From: Oscillospiraceae bacterium
GTDB taxonomy: Bacteria > Bacillota > Clostridia > Oscillospirales > Ruminococcaceae
Assembly (NCBI GenBank): GCA_024699425.1
Contig: JAILPP010000028.1
Location: 1-43,778, forward strand
DNA length: 43,778 bases
Direction: 5' to 3'
The translations under genes and the position numbers were made by a program. Below are positions 3,639 to 15,864 of the stretch, piece by piece. The stretch's first letter is position 1; each line of letters starts with the position of its first letter. Below the pieces are notes generated by a model. That model saw nothing but the letters and a program-made list of their open reading frames with translations, made no database searches and had not been told where the DNA came from.

Positions 3639-3666
3639 GCATGGCTGCTGTTTATGGCAGCCATGC
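3639..3666 (+). promoter_or_regulatory. 5' leader hairpin of the MBOAT operon
   Basis: GCATGGCTGC (3639-3648) pairs perfectly with GCAGCCATGC (3657-3666) around an 8-nt loop. It lies about 10 nt after the predicted transcription start and about 40 nt before the start codon. No T-run follows. An mRNA-stabilising leader is the simplest reading. Confidence 0.45.
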
Positions 3667-3707
3667 TTGCGGATAGAGATAACAGAACAAAAGCAGGAGT
3701 GATCGTT

Positions 3708-5108
3708 TTGGTATTCAGCAGTCTGGAATTTTTATTTTTCTTTCTGCCTGTTTTTTTCGCTGTTTACGCCGCCGTGCCGGGAAACAAGCTGAAAAATGCA
3801 GTAATCTTCATCGGAAGTGTCATCTTTTACAGTCTTGGTGTTCTGGAAACGTGGGTGTATATCCCACTGTTTTTGCAGACAATACTCATCAATTATCTGC
3901 TGGGCATTCTCATGGATGCGAGCAGGAAACACGCAAAGCTGCTTCTGATACTGGGCATTCTCTATAATGTCTGGTGGCTGTTGTTTTTCAAATATTCGGG
4001 GTTCTTCCTGACGAATCTCAACACCGCACTGCACACGCAGTTCACCGTGCGGGACATTCTGCTGCCCATCGGCATCAGTTTCTACACGTTCCAGAACATT
4101 TCGTACATTGCGGACGTATATCGGGGAGACACGCCGCCTGAGCCGAATTTTATCAACTACGGAGCTTATATCTCGATGTTCCCGCAGCTCATTGCAGGAC
4201 CGATCGTCAGCTACCGCACCGTGCGGGAAGATCTGCTCACACGCACGCACACCCTTGACAAACTGGACAAGGGTCTGCGCACATTCATTGCGGGACTCGG
4301 ATTCAAAGTGCTGATCGCGAATCAGCTTGGCGGACTCTGGAACGATCTGAACGTCACGGGTTATGACTGCATTTCCACGCCGCTTGCATGGATGGGCATC
4401 GCGGCGTTCTCGTTCCAGCTTTATTTTGATTTCATGGGCTATTCCCTGATGGCGATCGGGCTGGGCTTGATGATGGGCTTTCATCTGCCGCAGAATTTCG
4501 ACCAGCCCTACCAGTCGGTGACGATGACGGAATTCTGGCGCAGGTGGCACATCACACTCGGCGCATGGTTCCGGGACTACATCTATATCCCGCTGGGCGG
4601 CAACCGTCACGGCACGCTGCGAACCGTCTGCAATCTGCTGGTTGTCTGGCTTCTAACGGGCTTCTGGCACGGTGCAAGCTGGAATTTCATTCTGTGGGGA
4701 CTGTTCCTGTTTGTGATCCTGATCTCCGAAAAATTCCTCACGGGCAAGATTCTGAACCACTACCGCACACTGGGACATTTTTATATGTTCCTGCTGATCC
4801 CGCTTTCATGGACGCTGTTCGCCGTGACCGATCTGCACAGTCTCGGAACGTATCTGCTGCGTCTTTTGCCGTTCCTGCCGCATGAAGAATTTATGTTTGC
4901 CCCTGCGGACTATGCAAATTCGTGGGAGACGTACTGGAAATATTTTCTTGCCGCTGTGCTGTTCTGCACGCCGTTTCCGGAATGGGTCGGGAAACGTCTG
5001 AAAAAAGCGAAGATCGTCACCGCAGTCTGGTACGGTGCAATTCTTCTGTCCGCAATCTATTGTATGTACAAGGGTCTGAATGACCCGTTCCTGTATTTCC
5101 GTTTCTAA
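3708..5108 (+). CDS. MBOAT family membrane O-acyltransferase (AlgI/DltB-like)
   Basis: A polytopic membrane protein of about 466 aa. The start is taken as TTG at 3708 because AGGAG (3695-3699) sits 8 nt upstream and the resulting N-terminus, VFSSLEFLFFFLPVFF, is the usual one for AlgI-type proteins; an in-frame ATG at 3654 has no ribosome site. Hallmarks are the conserved FWRRWHITLGAWFRDYIYIP loop and the WLLTGFWHGASWNFILWG segment with the invariant MBOAT histidine. The family moves acyl, usually acetyl, groups across the membrane to extracellular polymers with the help of a secreted SGNH partner. Here two such partners follow immediately, the first ribosome site overlapping this stop codon. 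Alginate-like exopolysaccharide, peptidoglycan or teichoic acid are all possible acceptors; the sequence does not decide. Confidence 0.92.
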   Translation: MVFSSLEFLFFFLPVFFAVYAAVPGNKLKNAVIFIGSVIFYSLGVLETWVYIPLFLQTILINYLLGILMDASRKHAKLLLILGILYNVWWLLFFKYSGFFLTNLNTALHTQFTVRDILLPIGISFYTFQNISYIADVYRGDTPPEPNFINYGAYISMFPQLIAGPIVSYRTVREDLLTRTHTLDKLDKGLRTFIAGLGFKVLIANQLGGLWNDLNVTGYDCISTPLAWMGIAAFSFQLYFDFMGYSLMAIGLGLMMGFHLPQNFDQPYQSVTMTEFWRRWHITLGAWFRDYIYIPLGGNRHGTLRTVCNLLVVWLLTGFWHGASWNFILWGLFLFVILISEKFLTGKILNHYRTLGHFYMFLLIPLSWTLFAVTDLHSLGTYLLRLLPFLPHEEFMFAPADYANSWETYWKYFLAAVLFCTPFPEWVGKRLKKAKIVTAVWYGAILLSAIYCMYKGLNDPFLYFRF

Positions 5109-5120
5109 GGAGGAATGACC

Positions 5121-6104
5121 ATGAAAACGGCTGTCAAAATCGGCAGTATCGTGCTTCTGAGTACCTGTATGCTGGTGACCTCTCCGCTGATTGCGGGAAG
5201 TGTCGTCCGCAGCAGTCCCGTAATCCCCGCCGCAGAAGAACCCGTTTCCGAAACCGAACCGCCGACGGAGGAAACCACCGAACCTGTCACCGAACCGCCC
5301 ACCGAACCGCCCCCGGAACCGCTTGCATTTTCTGTCGGAGACGAATCCTATTTTGAAGATGCGCTGTTGATCGGTGATTCGCACATCGGACAGCTCAGGC
5401 AGTACGGAACGCTGCACGAAGCGGATTATCTGTGCGGTGCAGGGCTTACCACGCAGATGCTCCTTGACGATGAACCGATGGAAGGAACGACATTTTCCGA
5501 AAAGCTCGCTTCCCGCAGTTACGGTAAAATTTACCTGATGGTAGGATTTCATGAGACAGCGGAGGACAAGGAGACATTCCGTTCCCATCTGCGCCGTCTG
5601 GCAGATCAGATACGGGAAGCCCAGCCGGAAGCGTTCCTGTTCCTGATGGCAAACCAATACCTCACCAAGACCGCAACGCTCACAGACACCCTGCACGACA
5701 GTGCTTCTCTGCGTTCCCTGAATGCGGTGATGCAGTCTATGGAGGACGGGCAGACGATCTTTTACCTTGACAGCAATCCGCTGTACGATGACGGCTACGG
5801 TTTTCTGTCGCCTGATGCGTCCTCGGACGGTGCGCATCTCCGTCAGGAGCTGTACCCCGAACTGTGTACATGGCTTTGTGAACATGTCATCATCCTGCCC
5901 GAACCGGAGGAGGAAAAGCCCCTCACCTTCGGCGATGCCGTCAATGCACTCCGCCAAGGCAAACAGGCGGCAAGAGAAAGCTGGGAAGATGCCGTTCTGG
6001 TCATAAGCGGCGATGCAATACAGAAGCAGTCAGGGGACAGCACCGCACCGTGGACACCGGGTCAGGAAGATCTGCTTGCAAATGACTGGAGGATCGTGGA
6101 GTGA
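5121..6104 (+). CDS. Secreted SGNH-hydrolase-like protein with C-terminal DUF2829/Tad2-like domain (first paralogue)
   Basis: 327 aa from ATG 5121, chosen because AAGGAGG (5107-5113) is 7 nt away; the ATG at 5115 is too close. Residues 1-30 are a signal peptide or anchor, and 31-68 a Pro/Glu/Thr-rich linker. Residues 70-260 form an SGNH fold: IGDSH with the candidate nucleophile Ser87, and SSDGAHL with the Asp236/His239 pair. The usual block III Asn is replaced by His144 (VGFHET). Residues 268-327 read LTFGDAVNALRQGKQAARES followed by APWTPGQEDLLANDW, which resembles the DUF2829 pattern (FGxAL...GxxxxRxxW...PW..xQxDLLAxDW). The neighbouring MBOAT suggests a role as extracellular acetyltransferase or esterase. 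The loss of the oxyanion Asn makes weak or different catalysis possible. The terminal domain assignment is by eye. Confidence 0.8.
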   Translation: MKTAVKIGSIVLLSTCMLVTSPLIAGSVVRSSPVIPAAEEPVSETEPPTEETTEPVTEPPTEPPPEPLAFSVGDESYFEDALLIGDSHIGQLRQYGTLHEADYLCGAGLTTQMLLDDEPMEGTTFSEKLASRSYGKIYLMVGFHETAEDKETFRSHLRRLADQIREAQPEAFLFLMANQYLTKTATLTDTLHDSASLRSLNAVMQSMEDGQTIFYLDSNPLYDDGYGFLSPDASSDGAHLRQELYPELCTWLCEHVIILPEPEEEKPLTFGDAVNALRQGKQAARESWEDAVLVISGDAIQKQSGDSTAPWTPGQEDLLANDWRIVE

Positions 6105-7240
6105 GCAACATGAAAAAAAAGACAGGAAATCACGGCAGAATGATCGCAGGGCTTGTGATCGTCCTGCTGTGCTATGCAGGCTCTGCGCCGTTTGTGTATA
6201 AGCAGTTGTGGGAACAGAAAACCACGGCGGCAGAAGTCACCAACGGGGAAAGTCCCACCGAATCCGAAATTCCGACCGAAACCGAAACCGAATCTGAAAC
6301 GGAAACAGAAACGGCAGCAGAATCCGAAACCGAAGCCCCCACCGAAACCACAGAACCTGTCCCGCTGGAATTTGTCACGAGTGATGCCTCTTATTTTGAC
6401 GATGCCTTTTTCATCGGAGATTCCCGCATGGTGGGCATTTCCATGTTTGGCAAGATGCCGAATGCGGATTTCTTCTGTACGGCGGGGCTGTCCTCATGGG
6501 GCGTACTCAGCGGCACACGCATCAAGGGCAAGTCTGTCGATGATTATCTGAATACAAAGCAGTACGGAAAAGTCTACATCATGCTGGGCATCAACGAAAC
6601 GGGAGATATGCCCCGCTACAAAGAGAACATTGCCAAACTCTTTGACAAGGTGCGGGAATCGCAGCCCGATGCGCTGATTTTCATGATGGCAAATCTGCAC
6701 GTTTCCGCCGCAGTCAGTCAGGCACGTCCGAACATCGGCAATGCACGGCTCAACGAAGCAAATGCCTACATCGAATCCCTGACGGACGGGCAGACAAGTT
6801 TTTACATTGACGTAAATCCGCTGTTTGACGATGAGAACCACTGTCTGCCTGCTTCCAAAAGCGGTGACGGCATTCATCCGGGCGGCATGGATTATGCAAA
6901 ATGGGCAGAATGGCTGTTCACGCAGACGATCACGGAAGAAAGCCGTCCGAGGGAACTGCAAAGTTTCGGTGATGCGCTTGACCATGTGCTGGAAGGCGGT
7001 TATGCAATGCGTGAGGAATGGGAAGAGGGACAATTTCTGTGTCTTATCACCCCGACCGTGCAGATCGGCGAAGAGGAAAACGCCTTTGACTGCGTGGCAT
7101 ACCGCACAGCGGACGGCAGGTATCTCCCGTGGACAGCCGCGCAGGAGGACTTGCTGGCAGAGGACTGGATCCTGCTCCACCATATGCCCGACCCCGTGGA
7201 GACGGAAACGCAAGAAGAAACAGAAAATCAGGTGGAATAA
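6101..7240 (+). CDS. Secreted SGNH-hydrolase-like protein with C-terminal DUF2829/Tad2-like domain (second paralogue)
   Basis: 379 aa from GTG 6101, overlapping the previous stop by 4 nt (GTGA); an ATG at 6110 is an alternative start. Residues 12-33 form a signal anchor and 45-88 a linker of repeated Glu-Thr/Glu-Ser. The SGNH fold then shows a full set of blocks: IGDSRM (Ser108), LGINET (Asn165) and SGDGIHPGG (Asp256, His259). Residues 287-360 carry the DUF2829-like module: SFGDALDHVLEGGYAMREEW at its start and LPWTAAQEDLLAEDWILL at its end. It is clearly a paralogue of the gene before it, but with intact catalytic motifs, and is the better candidate for the active extracellular partner of the MBOAT acyltransferase. 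A terminator follows; the stop codon lies in its loop. Confidence 0.82.
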   Translation: MSNMKKKTGNHGRMIAGLVIVLLCYAGSAPFVYKQLWEQKTTAAEVTNGESPTESEIPTETETESETETETAAESETEAPTETTEPVPLEFVTSDASYFDDAFFIGDSRMVGISMFGKMPNADFFCTAGLSSWGVLSGTRIKGKSVDDYLNTKQYGKVYIMLGINETGDMPRYKENIAKLFDKVRESQPDALIFMMANLHVSAAVSQARPNIGNARLNEANAYIESLTDGQTSFYIDVNPLFDDENHCLPASKSGDGIHPGGMDYAKWAEWLFTQTITEESRPRELQSFGDALDHVLEGGYAMREEWEEGQFLCLITPTVQIGEEENAFDCVAYRTADGRYLPWTAAQEDLLAEDWILLHHMPDPVETETQEETENQVE

Positions 7241-10622: not shown

Positions 10623-13295
10623 CTATTTTTCCATCATCATCAGTCCGAACGTACCGGGTCCGCAGTTGACAGCGATTGCAGGAGAAGCCTTCCGGAAATA
10701 CACCGTTTCAAACGAAGCATATTCCCCGATCTCTGCACGGATCCAGTCCATGTCCCGCTTGGTCAGACCCACATAGGTGACGAGCAGGATATGTGGGTCA
10801 TAGCGCAGCGGCTGACGAAACACACCGCTGATATACCGTCTCCACGCCCGTTCCCGTGAACCGATGCAGAAACCGCCGATCACGACTTTGCCTTTTTTCA
10901 TCCGCAGAACGGGGCGAAGAAGCAGTGATCTTGTCAGATCACAGACCTGCTGATTGACCTGTCCTGCCCTTGCCATGAAGCTCAGATCATCGACGATGAA
11001 ACTGGTATGCACCTTTTCCCGAAGCCGTTCCAGACGTTCTGTGATCTCAGCGGGACTTCTGCCGTTCTCCGCCATGCGTGCGGCTTCAAGGGCAAGCAGT
11101 CCCTGACCGCCTGACAGATGCCATGTATCCACGACCGTCACGTTTTCAAATGCCTGTGCCGCTTCCATTGCCGCAGGACAGCCGCTGTGTGCGACCTTGC
11201 CCGAAACGGAGAGATGTATCACTTGATTCGCCCTTGTAAGCTGTCTTGCAAAGAACATCTCGCAGGTCTGCACATCAGGGGAAAGCGTTTCGACCTTGTG
11301 GGCGGCATCCTGCATATAACTCAGCAGCCCCTTGGTTTCGATCTCAATGCCGTCCTTGAACGTTCCTTCCTCCGTGCAGACCATATGCGGAATGACGGCG
11401 ATCTGATGGCGTTCGAGCAGTTCTGACGGCAGATCTGCGATACTTTCCGTTGTGACTGCCACGGGGATTCTGCGCTGTGTCGTCTGCATCCATGAAATCG
11501 TATCCGTGAGGATCTCCGTATCTTCTCCCGTGACATAGACCAGATCATTGGGGAGCAGGCGGTAGAGTTCACGTTCGAGCGTATCGCCGCTGATGGGTTT
11601 GACCAGATAGCCGTCAAAGCCCTCTTTCGCATACAGTGCGCAGTTTTCAGCGCCTGCATTGGCAGTCAGGGCAGCGATTTTTGCTTTTTTGCAGCGTCCG
11701 CCGACTTGTGACAGGATACGGCGGCGGCATTCCAGACCGTCCATTTCGGGCATGAGGTGATCCATTAAGATCACATGGTATTCCGTGTCGAGGGTTTTAC
11801 GGAGTGCCTCTGCGCCGCCGGAAGCGGTGTCGATCTGCATTCGGGTATCCCGCAGGAGCTTGGTCACGACGAGCAGATTGGAAGCATTGTCGTCCACAAC
11901 GAGAATTTTCGCATCCGGTGCTTCAAAGGTTTTCTGATACTGATTTCTGTGTGTGAGAATATGCCGTGTCTCCAGATCGAGTTCCCCGATGCACTGTTCG
12001 CTGATGACTTCCTGCGGCAGATCAATCATGAACGTAGAGCCTTCGGTATAGACGCTGTTGACCGTGATCTCCCCGCCCATGAGATCGACAAACTGACGGA
12101 CAATGGAAAGTCCCAGACCCGTCCCTTCGATATGGCGGTTCTTCTCCTCGTCCACACGGCGGAACGCAGTAAACAGGAACGGGATATTTTCTTTCTTGAT
12201 GCCGATGCCCGTATCGCTGACGGTATACAGGATATGCAGCTTGCTGCCTTCTCGTCTGCCGCACTGAATGGAGAGCGAAACAGAGCCTTTCTTGGTGTAC
12301 TTGATAGCGTTGTTCAGCACGTTGATGAGAATCTGCTTGATGCGCACCTCATCCCCGAACAGCTCCGCAGGAATATCGGGTGCTACGTTCACATGAAAGG
12401 CAAGCCCTTTTTCCTTGGCACGCAGCCAGAGCATTCCCACGATCTCCGAGAGCATATCTCCGGGGCGGTAGACTGCGGGGTTGAGCTTCATCTGCCCCGA
12501 CTGGAATTTGGACATATCCAGAATATCATTGATGAGATGCAGCAGGAGCTTGCTTGCCGACTGGATATTGGCGGCATCTTCTGCCACCTCGTCGGAGATA
12601 TTCTCACGCAGTATCATTTCATTCAGTCCGATGATGGTATTGATGGGTGTGCGGATCTCGTGGCTCATGCTGGAGAAGAACTGGTTCTGTGCCGCATTGA
12701 GATTCTCGATCTGTCTGCGCTGTTCCTCGGCACGTCTGCTGGCGTTGATATAGAGACGGCTCTCATACATGATCATCAGACTCAGGGCAATGCCGATCAT
12801 GGTCAGAGCCACAAGCGAATCGAGATGTTCGGAAAACGGGTCACTGCGCCGCACCCATTCCGGATGCACATAGGAGACCGAATAGCACACCGCCGCCGTC
12901 AGTGCATTGCCGAGCGTAAAGATCATTCTTGCTCTGCCTGACAGGATCATGCTGATGAACACATAGTTATACAGAAACCAGACAGGCGCACACCCGCTGA
13001 TGCCGCCGTTGAAGAAGTAAATGCCGGGCAGGTACAGGAACACGACCAGAAAGGCAGTGACGACCGAACCGATACGGATTCTGTTGACAGCGACCGACCC
13101 GACCGAAACCAGCAGAAACAAAGCCATCATCACCGCAACAACGAGGATATTGGTCATACTGCCGCCCATCACAACGATCTCTGCGATCGTGATGAGCAGT
13201 GTGAACGTTGTCACGCCGATATTGAGGATGAACAGCCGTTCCTGAATGTCCCTCTGTTCGCTGAGAAGCCGTTCCTTCCATTTTTCAAGGTTCAT
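10623..13295 (-). CDS. Hybrid sensor histidine kinase with receiver domain fused to a C-terminal DegV (FakB-like) domain
   Basis: 890 aa from ATG 13295, preceded by GGGGAGG; the upstream stop is 1 nt away. Several membrane segments occupy about residues 25-180. The HisKA box is SSMSHEIRTPIN (His212), and the HATPase has NNAIKY, DTGIGI and GTGLGLS. A receiver domain follows with VVDDN and phospho-acceptor Asp512 in LMDHLMPEMDG. From about residue 610 to the end the protein is a DegV domain: IPVAVTTESIADLPSELL, TLSPDV, LSVSGKVAHSG, DTWHLSGGQGLLALEAA, and FIVDDLSFMARAGQVNQ. DegV/FakB proteins bind a fatty acid and present it to FakA. Here that module hangs from a sensor kinase, suggesting lipid sensing or lipid-dependent output; this is inference. 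It is the last gene of a three-gene operon. Confidence 0.88.
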   Translation of the reverse strand: MNLEKWKERLLSEQRDIQERLFILNIGVTTFTLLITIAEIVVMGGSMTNILVVAVMMALFLLVSVGSVAVNRIRIGSVVTAFLVVFLYLPGIYFFNGGISGCAPVWFLYNYVFISMILSGRARMIFTLGNALTAAVCYSVSYVHPEWVRRSDPFSEHLDSLVALTMIGIALSLMIMYESRLYINASRRAEEQRRQIENLNAAQNQFFSSMSHEIRTPINTIIGLNEMILRENISDEVAEDAANIQSASKLLLHLINDILDMSKFQSGQMKLNPAVYRPGDMLSEIVGMLWLRAKEKGLAFHVNVAPDIPAELFGDEVRIKQILINVLNNAIKYTKKGSVSLSIQCGRREGSKLHILYTVSDTGIGIKKENIPFLFTAFRRVDEEKNRHIEGTGLGLSIVRQFVDLMGGEITVNSVYTEGSTFMIDLPQEVISEQCIGELDLETRHILTHRNQYQKTFEAPDAKILVVDDNASNLLVVTKLLRDTRMQIDTASGGAEALRKTLDTEYHVILMDHLMPEMDGLECRRRILSQVGGRCKKAKIAALTANAGAENCALYAKEGFDGYLVKPISGDTLERELYRLLPNDLVYVTGEDTEILTDTISWMQTTQRRIPVAVTTESIADLPSELLERHQIAVIPHMVCTEEGTFKDGIEIETKGLLSYMQDAAHKVETLSPDVQTCEMFFARQLTRANQVIHLSVSGKVAHSGCPAAMEAAQAFENVTVVDTWHLSGGQGLLALEAARMAENGRSPAEITERLERLREKVHTSFIVDDLSFMARAGQVNQQVCDLTRSLLLRPVLRMKKGKVVIGGFCIGSRERAWRRYISGVFRQPLRYDPHILLVTYVGLTKRDMDWIRAEIGEYASFETVYFRKASPAIAVNCGPGTFGLMMMEK

Positions 13296-13296
13296 A

Positions 13297-15864
13297 TCAT
13301 TCCTCCCCTTCCGGTGCAAAGATCAGGATTTCATCATCCGCACTGCTGCGGTTCTGTTCGGGCAGGAATTGCATGACACCGCTGTCCTGATCGGGGTCGG
13401 CTGCGGCACAGATGGTTTCCGTCAGGCGGTCATACAGTGTCATGACCTCGGCATGATGCGATTCAATGTATGCAAAGCGCTGTTCCTTGGCGGCAAATTC
13501 GAGAGACCGTGCCTGTTCGGAAAGGGTCGAACAGCCGATCATCATGGAAGTACTTTTGAGCGCATGAACAAGGATCTCATAATTCTTGTAATCCTTGAGG
13601 GAGAAGAATTTTTCCATATCCGCCCGTTTGACCGCCGCCTCCGATGCGAACTGGAGCAGCAGCGAACGGTAAAACTCCTCATCATTCTGACAGTAATCCA
13701 GACCCGTTGCGACATCGACACCCGCAAGGCGCAGGGCATCCAGCCACGTCATATCCTGACCCGACGGGAGCTGCAATTCCTCCTCTGTCTCTGCGGGCGT
13801 GATCTTCTCGGCATCGTAGGAAACCAGCGATTTCGGGAGAACCCGTTGCAGGACACGTTCCAGCTCTCTTAATTCGATGGGCTTGCTGACGAACCCGTCA
13901 AAGCCCTCTGCGAGAAATGTCTCCTTTGCGGTGCTGACCGCATTGGCAGTGAGCATGACAATGGGCGTATCCCCGCCTGTGCGGATTCCGTCGGCACGGA
14001 TTCGCTTCATCGCTTCGATGCCGTCCATTTCGGGCATCATATGATCCATGAACACAATATCAAACCGCCTTGTGCGGCAAAGTGCAATCGCCTCATGACC
14101 GGAGTGCGCCGTTGTGACCTGAATGCCGTAGCGTTTGAGAATGCTTCTGGCAACGGTCAGATTCATCAGTTCGTCATCGACAACAAGAGCCTGTACACCG
14201 TCGCACCGCAGATGATAGGTCACATCTCCCGTCTCATCGGGATCCTGATTCAATACCGCCGCTACGGGGAAACAATAGAACGGCTTATACATGATCCTCG
14301 CCTTTGAACCGTGCGGCAGCATGAAATCTGCATCGGCAATCACGATCACAATGATTCTTGCAGCGATCTTCTCGATCAGCGCAGGGTCACTCCGATACTC
14401 ATATTCACTGACAAACAGGTGAGAAAGCCGTACCGTCCGCAGGAGTTTTTTGAGATTTTCGGCATTTTCCACACGATGCATCTGCACGCCCAGTCCGCCG
14501 ACCATATTGCGCACCATATTGTTATAATATTCTCTGACATTCGGATCTTCAAAGCGTTCAAAGCGCAGATACGCACCGAGGCAGAACTGTTCCCGACGGC
14601 GCACGGACATACAGCCCGAAGGGTCAATGACCCGCTGCGGCAGACTGACACAGACCTTTGTGCCAACACCGGACTTGCTCGTCAGTGTGATAAATCCGCC
14701 GAGTGATGCAACAAATCCCGACACGATCGCAAGCCCAAGTCCCAGACCGCTGACGCTGCGGCTTCTTCCGGAATCGACCTGATAGAAACGGTCAAAAATG
14801 CGTTCCGTCTCCTCTTCCGTCATGCCGATGCCGGTATCCTCGACCTCAATGAAGAGGTTGACACCATACGTCTGCGGAATGGCAGAAATGCGCACATACA
14901 CGCCGCCCGTGCGGGTATATTTCAGACCGTTCATCAGAAGATGCCGCAAAATCTTGCGCAGTTTGCTGACATCCGTATGCAGCACAGAGGGAATGGCGGG
15001 GTCAACGTCAATGACCAGTTCGACCGCTGCCGATTTATGGGGGCGCAGTTCCGTGACCAGATCACTCAGCACGGAGGCGAGCATATAATCCTCTTCATTT
15101 CTTGCGAGCTTTCCGCGGTCGATCTCGGAATAATCGAGAATATCGCTGATCTGTTCGGAAACACGCTGTCCTGCGGACTGTACGGAGCGCAGGTCGCTGA
15201 GAATTTCCTCATTCTGTTCCTTGTCGATGCAGATGCCCGTCAGACCGACCACCGCATTGATAGGGGTACGAAGTTCATGGGATACATTGGCAAGGAAATC
15301 GTTCAGGCGGTTGCCCGCATCGGTGAGGTGTTCAATTTCCCTGTGTGTACTGCTGAGAACCTGTGTCCACTTGTCAATGATCGTGCGGGAAAACCAGCCG
15401 ATCATAAAGATCATGCCCAGATGCAGCAGCGACCGTGTGACAAACAGCGCATCAAAGGGCGTTCCGTCCTTTGCAAGCTGCATGAGTTCATAGGTCATTG
15501 TCACATAATATGTGATCTGACAGAACGTAATCAGCAGTTTATTGCCCGTCATGGTATACATCATAATGACCGCCGCCATCACAACGGCAAGGTCAAAGGT
15601 CGAAGTCTGATGAATGCCGTAGAAGAAGAAGCACGCCATCATCATTGCAGAATTGAGCCATTGCCGCTGGTCATCTGTCAGGATTCCCAGAATATGCATG
15701 ACCCACCCGCCGATGACACTCAGCCCGATGAGAAACAGTACCCACGTTTCCCAGCCGAGCAGCAGGGACTCTCCGATCAGAATGACGGCAAACAGCGTAT
15801 AGCTGATGAGTATCATCAGGTGTGCGGTATGGAACAGCTCATGCGTTTCTTTTTTTCTTGCCAT
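13297..15864 (-). CDS. Hybrid sensor histidine kinase (membrane, HisKA-HATPase, pseudo-receiver, receiver, Hpt)
   Basis: 855 aa. The N-terminal 160 residues hold about six membrane segments. HisKA: LANVSHELRTPIN (His196). HATPase: MNGLKY (Asn312), DTGIGM, SGLGLGLA. A region at about 424-545 looks like a receiver without its acidic pocket (a Ser/Glu-containing strand where the phospho-Asp should be). The true receiver begins QALVVDDELMN, with Asp607 in FMDHMMPEMDG. The C-terminal Hpt domain has LVHALKSTSMMIG (His767). The order suggests a His-Asp-His relay within one protein that could pass phosphate to the HD-GYP response regulator encoded upstream (2-nt gap) and exchange with the DegV-linked kinase downstream (1-nt gap). 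The stimulus is unknown. Confidence 0.92.
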   Translation of the reverse strand: MARKKETHELFHTAHLMILISYTLFAVILIGESLLLGWETWVLFLIGLSVIGGWVMHILGILTDDQRQWLNSAMMMACFFFYGIHQTSTFDLAVVMAAVIMMYTMTGNKLLITFCQITYYVTMTYELMQLAKDGTPFDALFVTRSLLHLGMIFMIGWFSRTIIDKWTQVLSSTHREIEHLTDAGNRLNDFLANVSHELRTPINAVVGLTGICIDKEQNEEILSDLRSVQSAGQRVSEQISDILDYSEIDRGKLARNEEDYMLASVLSDLVTELRPHKSAAVELVIDVDPAIPSVLHTDVSKLRKILRHLLMNGLKYTRTGGVYVRISAIPQTYGVNLFIEVEDTGIGMTEEETERIFDRFYQVDSGRSRSVSGLGLGLAIVSGFVASLGGFITLTSKSGVGTKVCVSLPQRVIDPSGCMSVRRREQFCLGAYLRFERFEDPNVREYYNNMVRNMVGGLGVQMHRVENAENLKKLLRTVRLSHLFVSEYEYRSDPALIEKIAARIIVIVIADADFMLPHGSKARIMYKPFYCFPVAAVLNQDPDETGDVTYHLRCDGVQALVVDDELMNLTVARSILKRYGIQVTTAHSGHEAIALCRTRRFDIVFMDHMMPEMDGIEAMKRIRADGIRTGGDTPIVMLTANAVSTAKETFLAEGFDGFVSKPIELRELERVLQRVLPKSLVSYDAEKITPAETEEELQLPSGQDMTWLDALRLAGVDVATGLDYCQNDEEFYRSLLLQFASEAAVKRADMEKFFSLKDYKNYEILVHALKSTSMMIGCSTLSEQARSLEFAAKEQRFAYIESHHAEVMTLYDRLTETICAAADPDQDSGVMQFLPEQNRSSADDEILIFAPEGEE

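Follow-up and report, generated by a model that had tools for sequence, protein, structure and literature searches.

Tandem SGNH Proteins with C-Terminal Tad2-Like Modules in a Putative MBOAT-SGNH Acyltransferase Cassette

Introduction

Known pairs of an MBOAT protein and an SGNH protein include the peptidoglycan O-acetyltransferase PatA/PatB, and also DltB/DltD, AlgI/AlgJ/AlgX and PatB1. In the available part of the source describing them, they have in common a C-terminal FXYXXF motif in the MBOAT protein and a membrane-anchored SGNH protein carried on a linker (PMC12148441). PatA, an MBOAT protein, loads an acetyl group on the tyrosine of this C-terminal motif, from which it passes to a serine of the SGNH protein PatB. 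The same acyl relay has been proposed for other MBOAT-SGNH pairs, and PatB is presented, in the available sections of the same source, as having no canonical carbohydrate-binding domain (PMC12148441). Transfer by PatB has been carried out with a synthetic hexapeptide.

A second line of work concerns Tad2 of phages. The forms treated in the accessible text of two articles are small intracellular sponges (PMC12043709, PMC11722364). Ligands of these Thoeris anti-defence proteins are gcADPR, His-ADPR or cyclic dinucleotides; SPO1 Tad2 is reported not to bind 3'3'-cGAMP (PMC11722364). Here, both lines meet in a cassette from an Oscillospiraceae bacterium of a small set of gut bacteria with kinship to Ruminococcus, in which an MBOAT gene is followed by two SGNH genes, P1 and P2, each ending in a Tad2-like module. 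What is new here is a known type of acyltransferase with an unexpected appended fold.

Results and Discussion

Organization of the Cassette

The window (the whole stretch of DNA that was analysed, 43,778 nucleotides) contains the three genes of the cassette on the forward strand, in the order MBOAT, P1 and P2 (Table 1). The true start of the MBOAT gene is likely the TTG at 3708, since an AGGAG lies at 3695-3699 and several relatives align from residue 19. If P2 starts at the GTG at 6101, the gene overlaps the TGA stop codon of P1 by four bases; the alternative start is the ATG at 6110. The surroundings look chromosomal: the cassette lies between a family 3 glycosidase and a chorismate synthase at one end and, at the other, hybrid histidine kinases and a DUF3160 protein.

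Two of the neighbors deserve a separate mention. The family 3 glycosidase (287-2311; PF00933, 305.6 bits) has an N-terminus that resembles a lipoprotein signal by eye. One of the hybrid histidine kinases (10623-13319; HisKA, HATPase_c and receiver domains) carries a C-terminal DegV domain (PF02645, 138.8 bits, residues 620-897), which we take to be a fatty-acid-binding fold. A link between lipid sensing and a phosphorelay is possible in this protein.

Table 1. Coordinates of the cassette genes and of their Tad2-like modules in the window.
Feature	Position	Strand	Observations
MBOAT O-acyltransferase	3654..5108	+	PF03062, 100.6 bits; C-terminus FLYFRF = acyl-shuttle motif FXYXXF
P1	5115..6104	+	Hydrophobic stretch (about residues 9-27); E/T/P/S-rich linker; SGNH (GDS, GFHE replacing GxNE, DGAH); C-terminal Tad2-like module
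Tad2-like (PF11195) module of P1, short form	5925..6098	+	PF11195 match
P2	6101..7240	+	Hydrophobic stretch (about residues 14-32); E/T/P/S-rich linker; SGNH with all blocks (GDS, GINE, DGIH); C-terminal Tad2-like module
Tad2-like (PF11195) module of P2	6962..7174	+	PF11195 match; module model mean pLDDT 91.7

Enzyme Parts and Predicted Topology

Judged by sequence and by likeness to the described pairs, the genes most likely encode an MBOAT-SGNH envelope O-acyltransferase, since P1 and P2 follow an MBOAT that ends in the acyl-shuttle motif. The initial annotation had already placed an MBOAT partner beside the SGNH genes, and the PF03062 match bears this out. Among the best 80 of 432 related loci, a hexapeptide of the FXYXXF pattern forms the C-terminus in all 78 MBOATs found. 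The window MBOAT is DltB-like in sequence, far under the DltB cut-off (158 bits against NCBIfam TIGR04091, for which 375 are set).

The SGNH domain of P2 scores 44.5 bits against PF13472, above the cut-off of 32.9, and its catalytic blocks are complete. P1 reaches 21.4 bits, under the same cut-off, and is assigned to the family because it groups with the other P1 rows (SH-aLRT support 90) inside the clade of fused proteins (99). In the window P1, the serine and Asp/His blocks are retained. The block III asparagine is lost in this protein and kept in the four complete P1 genes of other loci.

Both proteins share one layout: a short positively charged start, a hydrophobic stretch, a linker rich in Glu, Thr, Pro and Ser, the SGNH domain and the C-terminal module. 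A signal peptide had been read ahead of the linker; a single hydrophobic stretch is indeed present, but it may be an N-in/C-out membrane anchor and not a cleaved signal peptide. The net charge ahead of the stretch is +2 in P1 and +4 in P2, and the P2 model begins with one helix (residues 10-47). The SGNH and module parts are predicted to be extracellular, because of the N-terminal hydrophobic stretch and the known topology of MBOAT-SGNH pairs, as given in the available text of PMC12148441; with the Glu/Thr/Pro/Ser-rich linker, this agrees, as a prediction, with the earlier placing of the module outside the membrane.

The C-Terminal Modules Belong to the Tad2-Like Family

Profile searches identified the C-termini of both proteins as members of PF11195 (DUF2829/Tad2-like), well above the curated Pfam cut-off of 25 bits: P1 matches over residues 271-328 (E 2e-11, 44.7 bits) and P2 over residues 288-358 (E 3.2e-14, 53.6 bits). 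This upholds the family assignment that had been made by eye, together with the starts given for the modules: the profile matches start at most 3 bases from the positions first proposed (5922 and 6959). Five further genomes of the genus have corresponding genes in which the family also scores above its cut-off. Solved Tad2 chains are matched weakly by sequence (best E 4.6e-5 and 0.0027 for the two proteins). In PHROGs, the modules fall into phrog_872 and phrog_1048, both of unknown function. PADLOC gave no match for the window proteins, NCBIfam gave nothing above cut-off for P1 and P2, and no carbohydrate-binding family was found in the modules by Pfam or NCBIfam.

A further profile was built from 45 phage rows alone, with 1000 shuffles of each protein tail as controls. 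The phage rows stem from 45 of at least 80 loci, were found with one DMLAEDW-end pattern and confirmed against the module of locus L022, so that the sample leans towards the near kin of L022. This profile gives 32.8 bits for P1 and for P2 each. From the shuffled tails, 999 and 978 were reported, with best scores of 7.0 and 5.5 bits, and none attained the real score.

Locus L022 itself (5501-6610) holds a single open frame with a GH25 lysozyme, a CW_7 wall-binding repeat and a Tad2-like part, its 5' end cut by the contig edge. In the viral contig L200, whose best segment is 62% identical to L022, a stop codon precedes the Tad2 part, which opens as a separate frame, so the fusion in L022 looks like a recent one-off; with the two parts separate in L200, L022 was discarded as support for a wall role of the module. 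Other loci show further arrangements. A 252-aa protein (L193:1249-2007) has two Tad2-like segments by eye and no hydrophobic start, and a similar doubling is suggested on inspection in L209, L212 and other viral loci. Many phage Tad2 domains (L202, L228, L257, L270 and others) are preceded by an N-terminal region of the form YIGTKxIxAxPMTRGxY ... DGYxSWSPxxVFExAYR.

Structure prediction gives the same picture for P2. The full-length model, computed from alignment A3 (50 sequences, zero phage rows), has a mean pLDDT of 87.1; the SGNH domain reaches about 98 and the module 84-92. With Foldseek, SGNH esterases stand at the top for this model; the catalytic domain of PatB is found at rank 42 and Tad2 chains at ranks 44-46 and 49, beginning with SPO1 Tad2. 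A second model, of the P2 module alone, included the 45 phage rows in its alignment and shows two helices (8-16 and 67-71). It matches 20 PDB chains at E<=0.001, every one a Tad2 from SPO1 or Myroides (probability 1.00, target-normalised TM 0.63-0.79). The P2 module is thus predicted to have the Tad2 fold, as had been supposed.

Distribution of the Fusion

Within the genus, PF11195 is part of this SGNH protein in six of 37 genomes (G000, G014, G025, G028, G034 and G035). Tandem pairs stand behind the same MBOAT in five of these six; the contig of G025 breaks off within the first gene. The tandem SGNH-Tad2 fusion first noticed in the window is therefore repeated elsewhere in the genus, and the suggested search for further fusions turned up five more genomes.

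A scan of genome contigs gave 432 relatives, of which the best 80 were kept. On the fetched stretch, 75 of these 80 loci show a single SGNH gene and lack the module (E<0.01, filters off). The other five (L111-L115) are tandem-fusion loci of the window's genus, from the same genomes as the five other than the window's in the genus search, and are counted once. In 78 of these best 80 loci, an MBOAT gene directly precedes the SGNH gene, at a distance of no more than 378 bases; the stretches of the remaining two, L111 and L181, are cut by a contig end. When the neighbors of the fused loci are compared, the cassette genes alone are common to them; weak matches aside, G028 and G034 are the one pair in which other genes match too.

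The fused loci L111-L115 are all labelled as metagenome-assembled genomes, and the window genome is 66% complete in 152 contigs. Such data could let an assembly or binning error join a phage gene to a bacterial one. Six genomes that were assembled separately however show the same architecture, and corresponding copies from different fused loci share 35-69% identity; we regard an artefact as barely conceivable.

A phage-encoded fusion was looked for and rejected: among 50,697 phage records, five match P2, none past residue 305 of 379. In viral contigs, 32 stretches match a pattern and none is a relative; among plasmids, one record matches, over residues 87-277 only. The samples of the order (394 genomes), class (391) and phylum (398), which overlap, contain seven PF11195 genomes each, the window's included, and no other long frame that carries the module. 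The longest PF11195 frame in these samples outside the window is 255 aa (G799) and the rest have at most 221 aa; the G799 protein was inspected and the remainder judged by frame length. A search of the literature on Tad2/Thoeris, on DUF2829 and on Tad2 with SGNH, covering mainly open-access journal papers, showed no report of such a fusion.

Sequence Changes in the Fused Modules

The core of the family is conserved in the fused modules. Residues F289, R304, W307, W344, L352, A353, D355 and W356 are invariant in all 12 fused modules and in all 45 phage rows. Glu349 is found in 12 of 12 fused modules versus one of the 45 phage rows.

A marked difference lies in the motif GWNG, which overlaps a conserved tryptophan and was taken as the mark of a sponge-type Tad2. 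It is present in 45/45 phage rows and absent from 12/12 fused modules, although it is not universal in the family, being missing also from four of the 11 non-window rows of alignment A2 (one of the four keeps WNG). All five PDB alignments examined, from seven matches in all, contain it. The motif is positioned between beta1 and beta2. As described in the accessible part of PMC12043709, the gcADPR pocket is lined, among other parts, by the beta1-beta2 loops of two protomers, helix alpha3 is named as part of the Tad2 pocket, and binding of cyclic dinucleotides depends on an insertion between beta2 and beta5. Alignment columns 57-77, occupied in most phage rows and empty in 11 or 12 of the 12 fused modules, may correspond to this insertion.

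With GWNG gone from every fused module, binding of Thoeris signals by them appears unlikely, which fits the initial annotation in its view that the ligand is not an immune signal. A broader possibility is that the modules still bind a nucleotide-type ligand, now outside the cell, as a signal sponge or as a sensor of released nucleotides. The conserved core columns, which include the stretch that forms pocket helix alpha3, would suit such a role. Against it stand the missing GWNG, at the expected beta1-beta2 loop of the gcADPR pocket, and the empty columns 57-77. We also know of no source of such a nucleotide ligand outside the cell, and consider this explanation very unlikely.

Origin of the Module and Selection

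The SGNH tree was calculated from 50 of 86 rows, including 39 of the 75 single-SGNH rows. In it, the 11 fused copies group as a single clade (99), as do the P2 copies (99), and a branch with support of 90 sets the P1 copies apart. The module tree (57 rows, 12 fused and 45 phage) places the 12 fused modules on one side of a branch versus the 45 phage modules with support of 98/93; many of its rows are long, the joining of the window P1 with P2 drew a program warning about long branches, and P1 modules are not separated from P2 modules. The simplest history suggested by these sequences is that fusion took place once and the resulting gene then duplicated, with the module retained in all 12 copies seen. 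The source of the module was probably a phage or prophage gene, because the family normally occurs there.

In both trees, the window P1 has the longest end branch, with lengths of 1.44 (SGNH) and 3.03 (modules). Because of this strong divergence and the lost block III asparagine, the window P1 may be a weak or dead enzyme. Judged by the long branches, the short module and the missing asparagine together, this protein may now serve a purpose other than ordinary catalysis.

Selection was estimated between G028 and G034. For P1 and P2, respectively, dN/dS is 0.07 and 0.13 in the SGNH domains, 0.22 and 0.27 in the modules and 0.30 and 0.40 in the anchor plus linker, against 0.09 in the MBOAT, all of them rough figures since dS (0.84 to 2.11) is partly saturated. 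The module evolves faster than the SGNH domain and nearer to the rate of the anchor plus linker, so selection on it seems to be weaker. On these rough figures, the modules are constrained, less so than the enzymes.

This rate, almost as fast as that of the linker, would suit a neutral or nearly neutral passenger, in which a phage gene was read into the end of an SGNH gene and left a folded, unimportant tail. Another genome of the genus offers a comparable one-off fusion, in which a GH25 lysin frame continues into a Tad2 module. Nevertheless, all 12 copies seen keep the module despite their long branches. Nine columns never vary among the 12, one of them being Glu349, which is nearly absent from the phage rows, and dN/dS is well below 1. 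We therefore find a mere passenger improbable.

Proposed Role of the Module

Our proposal is that the cassette encodes an envelope O-acyltransferase in which a phage-type Tad2 fold, once fused and then duplicated, is reused as an extracellular accessory module; we hold this with evenly balanced confidence. The MBOAT would place an acyl group on the tyrosine in its own C-terminal FLYFRF tail. A membrane-anchored SGNH protein would take it over on its serine and pass it to an extracellular glycan. The Tad2-type fold, probably derived from a phage or prophage gene, would have joined the C-terminus of the SGNH protein in a single event, before duplication of the resulting gene. The module has lost the loop that lines the immune-nucleotide pocket of phage Tad2 and would have been reused outside the membrane, most likely to hold the acceptor polymer, by analogy with AlgX, and less likely to hold partner proteins together.

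The nucleotide-sugar-like or wall ligand of the initial annotation is one of at least two live options, protein-protein pairing being the other and the chief competitor of our proposal. As a pairing device, the module would join P1 to P2, or either to the MBOAT, into a two-headed acyltransferase, much as Tad2 protomers assemble; Tad2 is a tetramer according to the available text of PMC12043709. Both copies carry the module at the four two-SGNH loci and at L111, where the contig end cuts the first gene; the 75 single-SGNH loci among the best 80 of 432 lack it. P1 and P2 are possibly translationally coupled through their overlap. However, the fusions look like one event, so the co-occurrence of fusion and duplication is a single evolutionary observation and counts once. 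The dimer contacts of Tad2 are moreover located on helix alpha2 and strand beta2 in the same part of that source (PMC12043709), and the P2 module model seems to lack a clear counterpart of alpha2. Pairing appears unlikely to us on this balance.

The accessory-module reading can be taken further: the Tad2 fold would have been turned into an extracellular glycan-binding module that positions tandem, MBOAT-fed acyltransferases on a cell-wall acceptor, with an origin in phage immune evasion. In this specific form, the proposal is tentative, and we would sooner doubt it than rely on it. More generally, an accessory module of this kind would be new to MBOAT-SGNH acyltransferases, with a bearing on how such enzymes find their polymer, and would show a fold that passed from phage counter-defence into the biochemistry of the cell surface.

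Tad2-like proteins invite an anti-defence annotation. A match to PF11195 need not by itself mean anti-Thoeris activity, because the use seen here is chromosomal, apparently surface-exposed and conserved within a clade, in an envelope-modifying enzyme.

Comparison with Known Systems

Compared with pairs of the PatA/PatB type, the window has two SGNH proteins for one MBOAT, each with a C-terminal Tad2-like module. The alginate O-acetyltransferase AlgX resembles P1 and P2 as an SGNH-type acyltransferase with an extra module, which is carbohydrate-binding in the available part of PMC9487903. It differs from them in belonging to another, circularly permuted SGNH family and in the fold that is appended.

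The GH25-CW_7-Tad2 frame of L022 (G026:C292) is similar in that a wall-acting enzyme of the same genus has a C-terminal Tad2-like module, but it is a phage-type lysin. The phage Tad2 proteins (SPO1 gp34.65, SptTad2 and ModTad2) and AcrIIA7 belong to the same PF11195 family as the fused modules and share with them the R..W and W-x(7)-LAxDW core; by Foldseek, the phage Tad2 chains also have the fold predicted for the P2 module. In contrast to phage Tad2, the fused modules are without GWNG throughout and form the C-termini of predicted surface enzymes, those of the window lying among chromosomal genes.
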